A DNA stretch of 64,000 nucleotides from Pseudomonas bijieensis (lineage in GTDB: Bacteria; Pseudomonadota; Gammaproteobacteria; Pseudomonadales; Pseudomonadaceae). The stretch lies in assembly GCF_013347965.1 (NCBI RefSeq), contig NZ_CP048810.1:4153501-4217500 (forward strand). Reading direction: 5' to 3'. Below, in pieces: positions 47,876 to 52,510 of the stretch; position 1 is the first letter of the stretch, and each line of letters opens with the position of its first letter. A program made the position numbers and the translations under genes. Under the pieces are notes generated by a model that saw nothing but the letters and a program-made list of their open reading frames with translations, was not told the origin of the DNA and ran no database searches.

Positions 47876-49000
47876 ATGGATGGCCCAAGATTGCGCAATG
47901 GCCAGGATTTTGTAATAGCCGAGCAAGTGCGAACTGACCGCTTGCAGCAACTGTTTCGCCAATCCGTTTCTGCGGTTTTCGGTAGCTACCTCGCAGCCAT
48001 CATGCTGAGCTGGCTGTGCTGGGATCGGTTTGAGCACAGCGTCATTCTTTGGTGGCTGGCCATCCTGACCGCTTCGACGCTGTTGCGTATCGCGCTATTT
48101 GTGGCCTATTTCCGCAGCGACGAAAGTCAGCGCACGCCTCAACGTTGGGAGCGCAAGTACTGGATCACGCTGGTGTCGTCCGCCAGCATCTGGGGCGGAG
48201 GCGCATTGGCTGTCATGCCGGCAGACGATCTTTTGACGCAGGCACTGGTCATGCTCTTTGCTGTCGGGATGTCTGTCAGCGCGGTGTCGTGCTACTCGGC
48301 CTACCGTGATATGACACTGGTCTCCATCGGCCTGGTGCTGTTGCCATGCACCGCCTGGCTGCTGTTTCAACCATCCCCGATCCAAGTCGGCATGGCCCTC
48401 TCGATCCTGGTGTTCGCGGCATTCGCTGCCCGCGCCACGCACAAAATGTCCCAGGCACTGGAAACCGCCTTCCGACTCACCCGTGAAATGGAACAGGCGA
48501 ACAGCATTTCAACCCGCGCCGCTCAAACCGATGAGCTGACTGGCTTGAAGAGTCGGCGAGCATTTTTCGAGCATGCCCAGCGACTTTACAACGAATGTAA
48601 GGCCAAGCGGCAAGGGTTGTGCGCGGTCATGTTGGATATGGATCACTTCAAGCACATCAACGACACCTACGGCCATCAGGTCGGGGATCAGGTTTTGCGC
48701 CAAATGGGGGAGGTCATCAGCTCGTCGTTTCGCACAACGGACATCCATGGCCGGCTAGGTGGGGAAGAATTCGCCATTCTGCTGCCCAACACCTCCATCG
48801 AAGTCGCCACCCAGATTGCAGAGCGGCTTATCGATACGCTCGCAGCCTTGGTGATCGAGCCTGTGCACTGCATATCAGCCAGCCTCGGCGTTGCATCGAC
48901 GGAGGCCTGTAATAAGGATCTCCACAGCTTGATGAACGATGCGGATAAAGCGCTGTATCGAGCGAAGGCGTTGGGGCGCAATCGAGTGGCTGTGGCTTAG
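47876..49000 (+). CDS. membrane-bound diguanylate cyclase
   Basis: A 374-residue protein with about six transmembrane helices in residues 35-190 (AIMLSWLCW, ILWWLAILTASTLLRIALFVAYF and others), resembling MASE-type sensors but not matched to a named one. The GGDEF domain follows (TDELTGLKSRRAFFEHA, DMDHFKHINDTYGHQVGD, active site GGEEF). The inhibitory RxxD (RTTD) lies five residues before the active site. It should make c-di-GMP subject to product inhibition. The start at 47876 has AGGTGG upstream; a longer frame from a TTG at 47849 is less likely. Confidence 0.88.
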   Translation: MDGPRLRNGQDFVIAEQVRTDRLQQLFRQSVSAVFGSYLAAIMLSWLCWDRFEHSVILWWLAILTASTLLRIALFVAYFRSDESQRTPQRWERKYWITLVSSASIWGGGALAVMPADDLLTQALVMLFAVGMSVSAVSCYSAYRDMTLVSIGLVLLPCTAWLLFQPSPIQVGMALSILVFAAFAARATHKMSQALETAFRLTREMEQANSISTRAAQTDELTGLKSRRAFFEHAQRLYNECKAKRQGLCAVMLDMDHFKHINDTYGHQVGDQVLRQMGEVISSSFRTTDIHGRLGGEEFAILLPNTSIEVATQIAERLIDTLAALVIEPVHCISASLGVASTEACNKDLHSLMNDADKALYRAKALGRNRVAVA

Positions 49001-49119: not shown

Positions 49120-49317
49120 GAAAATCCCATGATTCTGCTTGTGGATTCCCCTCTCTTCGAAGGCCAGCTATTGCGCGGGCCCTGTTGATCCCCCAAACAC
49201 CTCCTTCGTCCTGGCTCACTTGCGACCCAAACAGGTTGGCGGTACTGCGACGAGAAAATTAATTTCCTTTCAGATCAATTGGTTAATTAAAAGTCGGAAA
49301 ATTTTCAAAAATTTATC

Positions 49318-49327
49318 TTGCGCGCAA
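49318..49327. promoter_or_regulatory. candidate operator upstream of ohr
   Basis: TTGCGCGCAA, a perfect 10-bp palindrome within AT-rich DNA 103 bp before the ohr start. It may be the site of an OhrR-type regulator, but no ohrR gene is adjacent. Confidence 0.4.
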
Positions 49328-49429
49328 ACTATTTGTTCGTTAATTTTATCGCAACTGGTTAGCGCACAAACATTTAGCGCAAGCCAAACCCGACACTCGA
49401 TCAAACCAATCAGCAAGAGAGGAAACACC

Positions 49430-49849
49430 ATGAACGTTCTCTATACCGCAGTCGCAACCTCCACCGGTGGCCGTGATGGCCGTGCTGTTTCCAGCGACAA
49501 GATTCTCGACGTGAAACTGGCCACTCCCAAAGCCTTGGGCGGCGCTGGTGGTGAAGCCACCAACCCTGAGCAGTTGTTTGCCGCCGGCTACTCGGCTTGC
49601 TTCATCGGCGCATTGAAGTTTGTCGCCAGCCAGAGCAAACGCAGCATCCCCGCTGACGCCTCGATCACGGCACACGTTGGCATCGGCCAGATCCCTGGTG
49701 GTTTCGGTCTGGACATCGACCTGCACATCAACCTGCCGGGTCTGGATCAAGCCGATGCTCAAGCGCTGGTCGACGCGGCTCACCAGGTTTGCCCTTACTC
49801 CAACGCGACCCGCGGCAACGTCGACGTCCGTTTGCACGTCACCGTCTAA
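49430..49849 (+). CDS. ohr: organic hydroperoxide reductase Ohr
   Basis: Thiol peroxidase of the Ohr/OsmC family that reduces organic hydroperoxides using lipoyl thiols. The 139-residue product has the two catalytic cysteines in AAGYSACFIGALKFVA and AHQVCPYSNATRGN, and the family N-terminus LYTAVATSTGGRDGRA. The length is standard. GAGAGGAAA precedes the ATG. It lies 33 bp upstream of the tandem-repeat protein gene with no terminator between, so the two are probably one transcript. Confidence 0.95.
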   Translation: MNVLYTAVATSTGGRDGRAVSSDKILDVKLATPKALGGAGGEATNPEQLFAAGYSACFIGALKFVASQSKRSIPADASITAHVGIGQIPGGFGLDIDLHINLPGLDQADAQALVDAAHQVCPYSNATRGNVDVRLHVTV

Positions 49850-49882
49850 CTCACTCCATCTACGAATAAAAAGGATCAGGAC

Positions 49883-50329
49883 ATGAACACTTTCAGCAAA
49901 ACTCTCGTTGGCTCGCTTCTGGCACTGTCCCTCGGCAATGCGTTCGCGACTTCTTCTGTTCAACCTACGTTCGCTGAGGGTGGTTCGGATCGCCTGATCG
50001 AAAAACGTGTGGCTGAAGGCGGCTCCGATCGACTGATCGAAAAACGCGTAGCCGAAGGCGGCTCGGATCGACTCATCGAAAACCGTGTAGCCGAAGGCGG
50101 CTCGGATCGACTCATCGAAAACCGTGTAGCTGAAGGTGGCTCGGATCGACTCATCGAAAACCGTGTAGCTGAAGGTGGCTCGGATCGACTCATCGAAAAC
50201 CGTGTAGCTGAAGGTGGCTCGGATCGACTGATCGAGAACCGCGTGGCCGAAGGCGGCTCGGATCGACTGATCGAGAACCGCGTGGCCGAAGGTGGCTCGG
50301 ATCGACTCATCGAAAACAGGGTGGGCTGA
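49883..50329 (+). CDS. secreted protein of nine 13-residue tandem repeats
   Basis: A 148-residue protein: a signal peptide (residues 1-22, MNTFSKTLVGSLLALSLGNA then FA) and a short spacer, then nine perfect-length repeats of consensus VAEGGSDRLIENR, ending VG. The first two repeats end KR, the others NR. The repeats are short, charged and probably disordered or beta-solenoid-like. No enzymatic motif is seen. AAGGATCAGGAC precedes the ATG. It follows ohr by 33 bp and ends at a strong terminator. Similar AEGGSDR repeat proteins in pseudomonads have, as I recall, been labelled 'phage infection protein' without functional proof. Expression is unambiguous from ribosome site and codon periodicity. 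Confidence 0.75.
   Translation: MNTFSKTLVGSLLALSLGNAFATSSVQPTFAEGGSDRLIEKRVAEGGSDRLIEKRVAEGGSDRLIENRVAEGGSDRLIENRVAEGGSDRLIENRVAEGGSDRLIENRVAEGGSDRLIENRVAEGGSDRLIENRVAEGGSDRLIENRVG
49970..50320 (+). repeat. nine 39-bp tandem repeats
   Basis: In-frame 39-bp units. Units 3 and 4 are identical in DNA, as are units 5 and 6; others differ mainly at synonymous positions. This implies recent unit duplication under protein-level constraint. Confidence 0.92.
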
Positions 50330-50388
50330 ACTGTCCCTTCACCGCTCCGAAAATCGGTTGAATCAACCCATGTTGCTTCCAAAAGAAA

Positions 50389-50425
50389 AAACGCCGCTTA
50401 TCTCTCATGAGAAAGCGGCGTTTTC
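50389..50425. terminator. bidirectional terminator
   Basis: AAAACGCCGCTT ... AAGCGGCGTTTT with T-tracts on both strands, between the repeat gene and the convergent SDR gene. Confidence 0.88.
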
Positions 50426-50445
50426 TTGCGACCTGTCATAGGACC

Positions 50446-51234
50446 CTAAACGATGCTGTCCACCACACCACCATCCACACGCAACGCCGCACCGGTGGTG
50501 GCCGAGGCCTGTTCCGAGCTGGCATAGATGATCATGTTGGCGACTTCCTCGACGCGTGCCGCACGCTGGATGATCGAGGTGCTGCGGTGCTGATTGACGA
50601 AATCCGCCGCGACTTTTTCCAGGCTTTCCCCGCTGCGCTCGACATCTGCCTGCAGCATCTGGGCAACACCTTCGGAAAGCGTCGGCCCAGGCAACACCGA
50701 GTTCACCGTCACGCCCGTGCCGGCGAGGCGCTTGGCCAGGCCGCGAGCGATTGAAAGTTGCGCGGTTTTGGTGAAGCCGTAGTGGATCATGTCAGCGGGA
50801 ATGTTTACGCCCGATTCCGACGAGACAAACACAATCCGCCCCCAACCGCGCTCGACCATGCCTTGGGCGTAAGCCCTGGAAACCCGCACGCCGGACATCA
50901 CGTTGGTTTCGAAGAAGCGCTGCCATTCGCTGTCCGGCGTTTCGAAAAAGTCTTCCAGTTTGAAAATGCCCAGGTTGTTGATGACGATATCGAAACTCGG
51001 GTGCTTGGCGATCAGTGCCTGGCAGCCAGGCGCGTTGCTCAGGTCGCCCACAAAACCGGTGGCATTTGAAGCAAGGGCGCCCAAGCGCTGCAACGCGTCC
51101 TCCACGCTGCTCTCGCTGCGACCGTTGATGACCACGTGGGCGCCGGATTCGAGGAAGCCTTTGGCTGTGGCAAAACCGATACCGCTGGTGGAGCCAGTGA
51201 CCAGGACGTGACGTCCGGTGAAGTCGATTTTCAT
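50446..51234 (-). CDS. short-chain dehydrogenase/reductase
   Basis: A 262-residue classical SDR. Cofactor motif TGSTSGIG at residues 14-21, structural motif with NNLG in place of NNAG, catalytic Ser in VFVSSESG and Tyr/Lys in YGFTK, then PGPT after strand 6. An Arg after strand 2 (INGRSE) suggests NADP(H) preference. Substrate unknown. Likely single-gene unit, convergent with the repeat-protein gene. Confidence 0.9.
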   Translation of the reverse strand: MKIDFTGRHVLVTGSTSGIGFATAKGFLESGAHVVINGRSESSVEDALQRLGALASNATGFVGDLSNAPGCQALIAKHPSFDIVINNLGIFKLEDFFETPDSEWQRFFETNVMSGVRVSRAYAQGMVERGWGRIVFVSSESGVNIPADMIHYGFTKTAQLSIARGLAKRLAGTGVTVNSVLPGPTLSEGVAQMLQADVERSGESLEKVAADFVNQHRSTSIIQRAARVEEVANMIIYASSEQASATTGAALRVDGGVVDSIV

Positions 51235-52233: not shown

Positions 52234-52314
52234 TTCATCGGTCCATGATTGGCGGATACATTGGGTTATCGACAGCGGGGGACCAAGCTTTAGGAAGGGG
52301 CTGTTCTGCGCAGC

Positions 52315-52340
52315 CCAGCGGGAGCAAGCTCCCTCGCCGC
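52315..52340. repeat. single REP (GTGGCGAGGGAGC family)
   Basis: CCAGCGGGAGCAAGCTCCCTCGCCGC, one arm with one change. Confidence 0.82.
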
Positions 52341-52363
52341 AGAAGTTGGATCAGGTAATTATT

Positions 52364-52476
52364 GTGGCGAGGGGATTTATCCCCGTTCGAGTGCGAAGCG
52401 CTCGCCTGTGGATTGTGGCGCTGCGAGGAATAGGGGGGTTGCTGCGCAACCCAACGGGGATAAATCCCCTCGCCAC
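52364..52476. repeat. REPIN (GTGGCGAGGGGATTTATCCCC type)
   Basis: Inverted pair with 113 bp total length, same core as 3208-3336; sits between the unknown gene and the acyltransferase gene. Confidence 0.88.
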
Positions 52477-52510
52477 AATTAGGAGCCCTTGCAGAATTGA
52501 TTCCCGGCGT

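Follow-up and report, generated by a model that had tools for sequence, protein, structure and literature searches.

The window analysed here is a stretch of 64,000 nucleotides of Pseudomonas bijieensis DNA, and all positions below count from its first letter unless stated otherwise. The locus of interest consists of a gene for an organic hydroperoxide resistance protein, here called ohr2, and a gene for a putatively exported repeat protein directly behind it, flanked by two conserved neighbours. The features are as follows.

47876–49000, plus strand: gene for a GGDEF-domain protein, the conserved left neighbour (PF00990, 149.6 bits)
49308–49333, plus strand: promoter element 1 (AAAATTTATCTTGCGCGCAAACTATT), common to ohr1, from alignment
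49359–49380, plus strand: promoter element 2 (TTAGCGCACAAACATTTAGCGC), common to ohr1, presumed OhrR operator, from alignment
49430–49849, plus strand: ohr2, organic hydroperoxide resistance protein, the genome's second copy (TIGR03561)
49850–49882, plus strand: 33-bp gap between ohr2 and the repeat gene, with a ribosome site and no terminator seen
49883–50329, plus strand: repeat gene, a chimera, 148 aa
49883–49948, plus strand: signal peptide MNTFSKTLVGSLLALSLGNAFA, a homologue of the one that the ohr-linked alpha/beta hydrolase carries
49949–49972, plus strand: linker TSSVQPTF, derived from the parental repeat gene (L144 has SSVQPVV)
49973–50323, plus strand: nine 13-residue units, AEGGSDRLIE[KN]RV
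50383–50427, no strand assigned: intrinsic terminator hairpin between the convergent repeat and SDR genes (−24.6 kcal/mol, z −6.4)
50446–51234, minus strand: SDR (short-chain dehydrogenase) gene, the conserved right neighbour (PF00106, 141.6 bits)

The product of ohr2 belongs to the Ohr family (TIGR03561, 187.1 bits against a cut-off of 88.85, residues 4–137). The product of the repeat gene is composed of a 22-residue signal-peptide-like start, called by eye, an 8-residue linker and nine 13-residue units. Specifically, F precedes unit 1, and units 1 and 2 end in EKR, so that only seven of the nine match VAEGGSDRLIENR exactly, a small correction to an earlier note on this DNA, which had described a signal peptide plus nine copies. 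The array is found independently by TRF (49973–50317, 39-bp period, 8.8 copies, 92% matches, score 508), and the sole other TRF array in the window has 2.5 copies of 24 bp.

The arrangement of the two genes is as the earlier note had described it. The repeat gene starts 33 bp behind ohr2 and has its own ribosome site (AAGGATCAGGAC), which is kept with at most one base change in all 12 ohr2 loci described below. The gap and its borders fold no better than shuffled sequences (z −0.34), in agreement with the claim that no terminator separates the genes, while the hairpin 3′ of the repeat gene folds far better than shuffles, as expected of the common terminator that had been placed there. A consensus scan also found no plus-strand terminator in the gap, but the same scan missed the real hairpin. 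Elsewhere in the window, inverted repeats (GGGGATAAATCCCCTCGCCACAA and its reverse), which we take to be REP-like, occupy intergenic space at 52280–52500.

The genome of the window (one contig of 6,730,360 bases) carries a further full-length ohr, ohr1 (contig positions 2257671–2258087), with 91% protein identity to ohr2, and a third, distant match (31% over residues 39–131). Directly 3′ of ohr1 lies an alpha/beta hydrolase gene (2258118–2259134), which is 90% identical to the ohr-linked hydrolase gene of Pseudomonas sp. C1C7. Because an ohr1–hydrolase pair is thus present elsewhere in the same genome, we regard the ohr of the window as an accessory copy. The ohr-linked hydrolase matches Abhydrolase_3 (PF07859, 247.6 bits); its best NCBIfam match, LipP1, scores 315.8 bits, under the cut-off of 350. 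The two gene pairs are alike in having homologous ohr genes, the same position of the ribosome site and homologous signal peptides, but the repeat gene has repeats in place of the catalytic body, and its pair occupies another chromosomal place.

As the earlier note had proposed, the regions downstream of ohr were surveyed for AEGGSDR repeat genes, in the best 80 of 581 confirmed stretches, a sample biased towards Pseudomonas. An alpha/beta hydrolase gene lies behind ohr in 37 of the 80 loci (tblastn), and an AEGGSDR repeat gene in one, that of Pseudomonas sp. Q11 (L010), which has two units (motif scan). The other motif-scan matches in these loci are isolated motifs that lie in a different frame or place, and a keyword match to 'repeat' at L088 was discarded as a chance string, a lone GGADR inside a long frame. 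Together with strain Q11, 11 of 298 Pseudomonas genomes bring the number of ohr2 loci with a repeat gene to 12. In all 12, the repeat gene lies 31–34 bp behind ohr, and the pair sits between the GGDEF gene to its left and the SDR gene to its right. The proposed coupling of ohr and repeat gene therefore holds as a conserved two-gene unit in one lineage, but not as a general system. Relatives that carry the repeat gene far from ohr, which had been named as an outcome that would speak against the coupling, are indeed found across the family, but not among the orthologues of the window gene, all of which lie beside ohr.

A tree was built from 90 ohr genes (L024, L060, L062, L066, L068, L073 and all of L075–L089 were left out for frame offset or distance, the long branches L074 and L070 were kept, and the bootstrap was not fully settled). 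The 12 repeat-linked ohr genes form one clade (100/96), and the repeat–ohr linkage arose once. The sister of this clade, with modest support (86/87), is a small accessory ohr–hydrolase clade (G100, P. batumici, BN417 and R37), whose signal peptides read MN[AV]L[NT]KTLVGSLLALSIGNAFA. Because ohr1 of the same genome groups with P. kilonensis, away from ohr2, whereas ohr2 groups with the accessory ohr–hydrolase clade, ohr2 looks foreign and was probably gained by horizontal transfer. A search for the ohr2-free site in six single-contig genomes without ohr2 found none of 11 query pieces at the guessed position. About 3 kb behind one ohr–hydrolase pair of this accessory sister clade (L027:7490–7849, minus strand), there is a protein with the single motif AEGGGDRLIQ after a possible signal peptide.

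Alignment of DNA across the join points to the origin of the repeat gene. A query made of ohr2 and the signal peptide, searched against the 298 Pseudomonas genomes at E ≤ 1e-60, has a match in 235. The matches in the 11 genomes above are strong (91–100% identity) and cover essentially the whole query; apart from these, none among the matches listed extends beyond query position 522, many stop at 518–519, the last signal-peptide codon, and many stop earlier. Among 30 loci examined, the repeat gene is present in the 11 strong ones, and a hydrolase lies behind ohr in 18 of the remaining 19, the exception (L129) having neither gene there. Behind ohr2 itself, the encoded protein is signal peptide plus repeats at all 12 loci, none of which shows an alpha/beta hydrolase body in that place, and L010 gives no hydrolase match.

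The signal peptide of the repeat gene belongs with those of the ohr-linked secreted hydrolases. Its DNA was compared with 46 hydrolase signal peptides, picked with a pattern that constrains start and length loosely; the mean identity is 0.723, against a mean of 0.327 (sd 0.050, maximum 0.523) in 2000 codon shuffles. Furthermore, four of the 12 ohr2 loci (L103, L010, L112 and L113) were compared with two close hydrolases and seven repeat paralogues, and the better-matching partner switches within the gene. The signal-peptide DNA is 0.74–0.82 identical to the hydrolases versus 0.53–0.65 to the paralogues. Over the first 51 mature bases the order is reversed, with an identity of 0.35–0.54 to the hydrolases versus 0.75–0.88 to the best paralogue (L144, genome G002). 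At the join, both parents encode NAFA, the likely recombination site. An origin by fusion is well supported by these alignments, and the fact that the gene is a fusion with a hydrolase-derived signal peptide lay beyond the view of the earlier note. The locus is a clean natural case in which everything behind a signal peptide has been swapped and both parent families can be identified, with one parent pair, ohr1–hydrolase, still present in the same genome. With the Pseudomonas repeat proteins of the MKRQ type, the window gene shares the mature linker and the 13-residue units, the DNA identity reaching 88% in the first 51 bases of the mature part; these proteins differ in their signal peptide, in the lack of an adjacent ohr at the copies examined, and in units that sometimes alternate or differ.

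The alignment of the promoter region covered the 12 ohr2 loci, ohr1 of the same genome and 10 further ohr loci. Two blocks are common to ohr2 and ohr1-type promoters, AAAATTTATCTTGCGC(G/A)C(A/T)AA and TTAGCGC(G/A)CAAAcATTTAGCGC, and the core TTAGCGCgCAA occurs once in each direction, with some variation among loci. From their position and conservation, we infer that the blocks are OhrR operators. Because these elements are common to the canonical ohr gene, peroxide-linked expression is likely, and so is control of both ohr2 and the repeat gene by OhrR. No OhrR gene adjoins ohr2; a MarR-family, OhrR-like frame lies upstream of ohr1 (L102:2274–2739, G000:C1:2256.8–2257.2 kb). Most of this frame matches the C1C7 relative in one reading frame but the final 30-odd residues do so in a different one, whereas the P. 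kilonensis counterpart matches in one frame. The genome's own ohrR may be damaged or misread near its end, through a real change or a sequencing error.

The number of units varies widely among the 12 ohr2 loci (15, 11, 9, 7, 7, 6, 5, 5, 4, 4, 3 and 2), and the unit core does not. EGGSDRL, at positions 2–8, is invariant in all 78 units; the first count used a pattern that fixes part of the motif, and a pattern-free recount, with the arrays tiled by length, gives the same result. Pooled comparisons of units within the 12 arrays give a pS of 0.345 and a pN of 0.038 (pN/pS 0.11). Because of this synonymous spread, recent copying alone does not explain why the units are alike, and they are under purifying selection. 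Because the array recurs in all 12 relatives of the locus and its differences are mainly synonymous, it is more than a chance repeat. The mature part of the window protein contains no C, H, M, W or Y, which speaks against thiol or thioether scavenging of peroxide and against the usual copper ligands. This redox-inert character is not general, as other ohr2 arrays hold some Met (position 9 is Met in 11 of the 78 units).

A protein search found at least 453 relatives of the repeat protein (7,997 best candidates scored), and the best 120 of the 453 are annotated as hypothetical or, where named, as 'phage infection protein'. The 634 units from 122 proteins, among them the query and the hydrolase, have the consensus A-[EA]-[GD]-G-[SA]-D-R-L-x-x-x-R-V, in which positions 3–7 were fixed or limited by the search pattern and the second G is 100% by construction. 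The window protein has tandem A-x-x-G-[SA]-D-R-L units behind a signal peptide and is thus a member of the AEGGSDR family. At E ≤ 1e-8, the family is present in 23 of 25 sampled Pseudomonas genomes and in none of 13 genomes of other families. Its neighbours vary between loci: ohr lies within the flanks of two of 34 repeat or PtrA-type loci, both of them ohr2 loci, and is absent from those of the other 32. Linkage to ohr is a property of the ohr2 lineage, not of the repeat family.

The genome of the window has four family matches, the window gene included, and the unit drifts between paralogues while G-x-D-R is kept. One paralogue (L090:5014–5526, G000:C1:1849813–1850325) has a 26-residue super-repeat, in which AEGGSDRLIENRV alternates with AEGGADRLLERRV, and adjoins what we take to be a PqiC-like lipoprotein gene and a glutathione-transferase-like gene. 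Another (L092:4777–5481, G000:C1:3466.3–3467.0 kb) uses a different unit, AADGSDRTPQGQTL. A PtrA-type gene (L093:4869–5201, G000:C1:2562.7–2563.0 kb) encodes the mature N-terminus AEGGGDR, scores 76.3 bits against NF041599, over its cut-off, and lies beside a gene presumably for a copper-type P-ATPase. In other genomes, repeat genes occur in a row (G023:C1:5435429–5439917, six matches listed, two of them overlapping), and matches to the PtrA N-terminal domain number 15 in G030 and 10 in G005, some near each other. Three repeat genes (L137, L148 and L157) lie near genes that we assume to be anti-sigma-factor-like, another possible stress link.

The N-terminal domain of PtrA (PA2808; NF041599) likewise carries AEGG(S/G/A)DR directly after a signal peptide, but PtrA has a single motif followed by a distinct C-terminal part. 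In P. aeruginosa, PtrA is reported to be periplasmic, copper-linked and induced by zinc, and its function is disputed (PMC7922089, PMC7744410). The window protein scores 84.1 bits against NF041599 (cut-off 31), with its best stretch at positions 12–31 of 46. We rejected membership in PtrA, as the match is to a partial domain, the score grows with the number of repeats, and the two-unit Q11 orthologue, at 27.8, falls under the cut-off. NCBIfam TIGR03620, an F420 oxidoreductase family, matches eight stretches of the repeats (E 8e-10, 38.5 bits, cut-off 219.8), probably by chance, and this could mislead annotation. RTX and other calcium repeats were also rejected, since they do not seem to agree with the array in period or in glycine–aspartate pattern.

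We propose that ohr2 and the fused gene form a peroxide-stress operon that adds an exported, redox-inert, multivalent motif array to peroxide defence, an explanation to which we give an even chance of being right. The horizontally gained ohr2 would have arrived together with its secreted hydrolase gene, and a single recombination where the signal peptide ends, at the NAFA that both parents encode, would have replaced the hydrolase body by an AEGGSDR mature part. The repeat domain would thereby have gained the ohr promoter along with the ribosome site and the signal peptide, a step for which the sequence evidence is strong. Ohr family proteins reduce organic peroxides, and Ohr2 would act in the cytoplasm. 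Under organic hydroperoxide stress, OhrR would release the common promoter elements, subject to the state of the genome's own ohrR; the repeat protein would be exported by Sec and remain, as an extended and redox-inert chain, either in the periplasm or beyond it. Its AEGGSDRL units could then bind one envelope partner as a multivalent ligand. Changes in the number of units, which come in steps of 39 bp and are always in frame, could tune avidity or length with the gene unbroken. That partner might, more speculatively, also interact with the AEGG(S/G/A)DR N-terminus of PtrA-type periplasmic proteins. We prefer the role of envelope ligand with low to moderate confidence.

The most serious competitor to a peroxide-linked role is that the fusion was accidental and has been kept near ohr by descent, the protein having the general envelope role of its family, unconnected with peroxides. 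The many ohr-free contexts of the family and the single origin of the linkage fit such a passenger, as does the weaker constraint between species on the signal peptide and linker (pN/pS 0.31 and 0.33) than on ohr2 (0.03). But the gene, its 31–34-bp gap and its ribosome site have been kept at all 12 loci while ohr2 itself diverged to a pS of 0.204, the units are under purifying selection and the promoter elements are conserved; we regard the passenger reading as doubtful, though with a real chance. The array could also be a precursor that an envelope protease cuts into 13-mers acting as signals or public goods, since it combines a signal peptide, regular units, an invariant EGGSDRL and, in most units, a basic residue close to the end (R at position 12 in 76 of 78). 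The adjacent genes, ohr2 and the SDR gene, encode neither a protease nor a transporter. Position 11 varies freely (N 58, K 14, S 5 and R 1 in 78 units), so that the dibasic site is not conserved, and relatives use other spacings besides 13 (13 in 458 of 514, 15 in 30), all of which counts against the proteolytic peptide release suggested in the earlier note and makes a precursor improbable.

Nor do we think it likely that the array, at the surface or within the biofilm matrix, forms a beta-solenoid or an amyloid-like fibre. The units are strongly regular, and the best of five single-sequence AlphaFold models has nine beta strands with a pTM of 0.65 and a pLDDT of 80.8, which also counts against our extended-chain reading. 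But only two of the five models exceed a pLDDT of 70 (80.8, 74.8, 49.1, 33.5 and 32.3), a run with a 33-sequence alignment gives 42.4, Foldseek finds no match in the PDB at E ≤ 0.001, and the gene is kept in Q11 with two units only, short for a solenoid. AlphaFold 2 is reported to give confident but unrealistic solenoids for repeats (PMC11795689), and because of this artefact we draw no fold from the models. A phage-related surface factor, as the earlier note had also suggested and as the database name 'phage infection protein' borne by several homologues hints, is very improbable: tblastn finds no match in 50,697 phage records, and the PHROG matches, with the repeat protein as query, are short, weak (best E for the window protein 2.5e-5) and to families of unknown function. 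We therefore rejected its membership among phage proteins.

Returning to the fused array as an envelope ligand, we tentatively suggest, as a possibility less probable than the operon reading itself, a genus-wide class of exported short-motif arrays (core A-E-G-G-S/A-D-R-L) that serve various envelope stresses, with new members wired into stress operons by recombination at the signal-peptide end. The ohr2 fusion would be an example caught in this way, linking a common envelope ligand to peroxide defence. If this is true, one such recombination supplies the promoter and the ribosome site together with the export signal. The locus ties a widespread Pseudomonas protein family to a defined stress operon, which makes its function testable by simple induction and deletion, and the invariant EGGSDRL core offers a precise target for a binding-partner search. 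Some members of the family bear a misleading database name.

Among plasmid proteins, the repeat protein has two distant matches only: one of 43% on pCC1524 of P. asturiensis, where the incomplete gene table lists hypothetical proteins, a heme utilization protein, a methyltransferase and glycosyltransferases as neighbours, and one of 31% in a pentapeptide-repeat protein of Yimella. A text search of the literature found, in the papers covered, neither AEGGSDR or AEGGADR nor a secreted 13-residue repeat. In P. fluorescens In5 confronted with Rhizoctonia solani, a 'Phage infection protein' gene is reported to be up 32.4-fold, in a list that also names two azoreductases, two quercetin 2,3-dioxygenases, pirin and a hydroquinone reductase, ohr not being among the genes named there (PMC5557065); judged by name only, this gene may be a member of the repeat family, and its induction would then speak for the proposed stress operon. 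A 'Phage infection protein' of strain 2P24, C0J56_00080, is reported as a predicted Sec/SPI substrate and InvF-dependent (PMC8490769). By rough gene calls, the repeat gene is the 15th and the 18th gene from the contig start in two single-contig relatives. That start presumably lies at dnaA. Because of this gene order, C0J56_00080 may be the ohr2-linked copy in 2P24.
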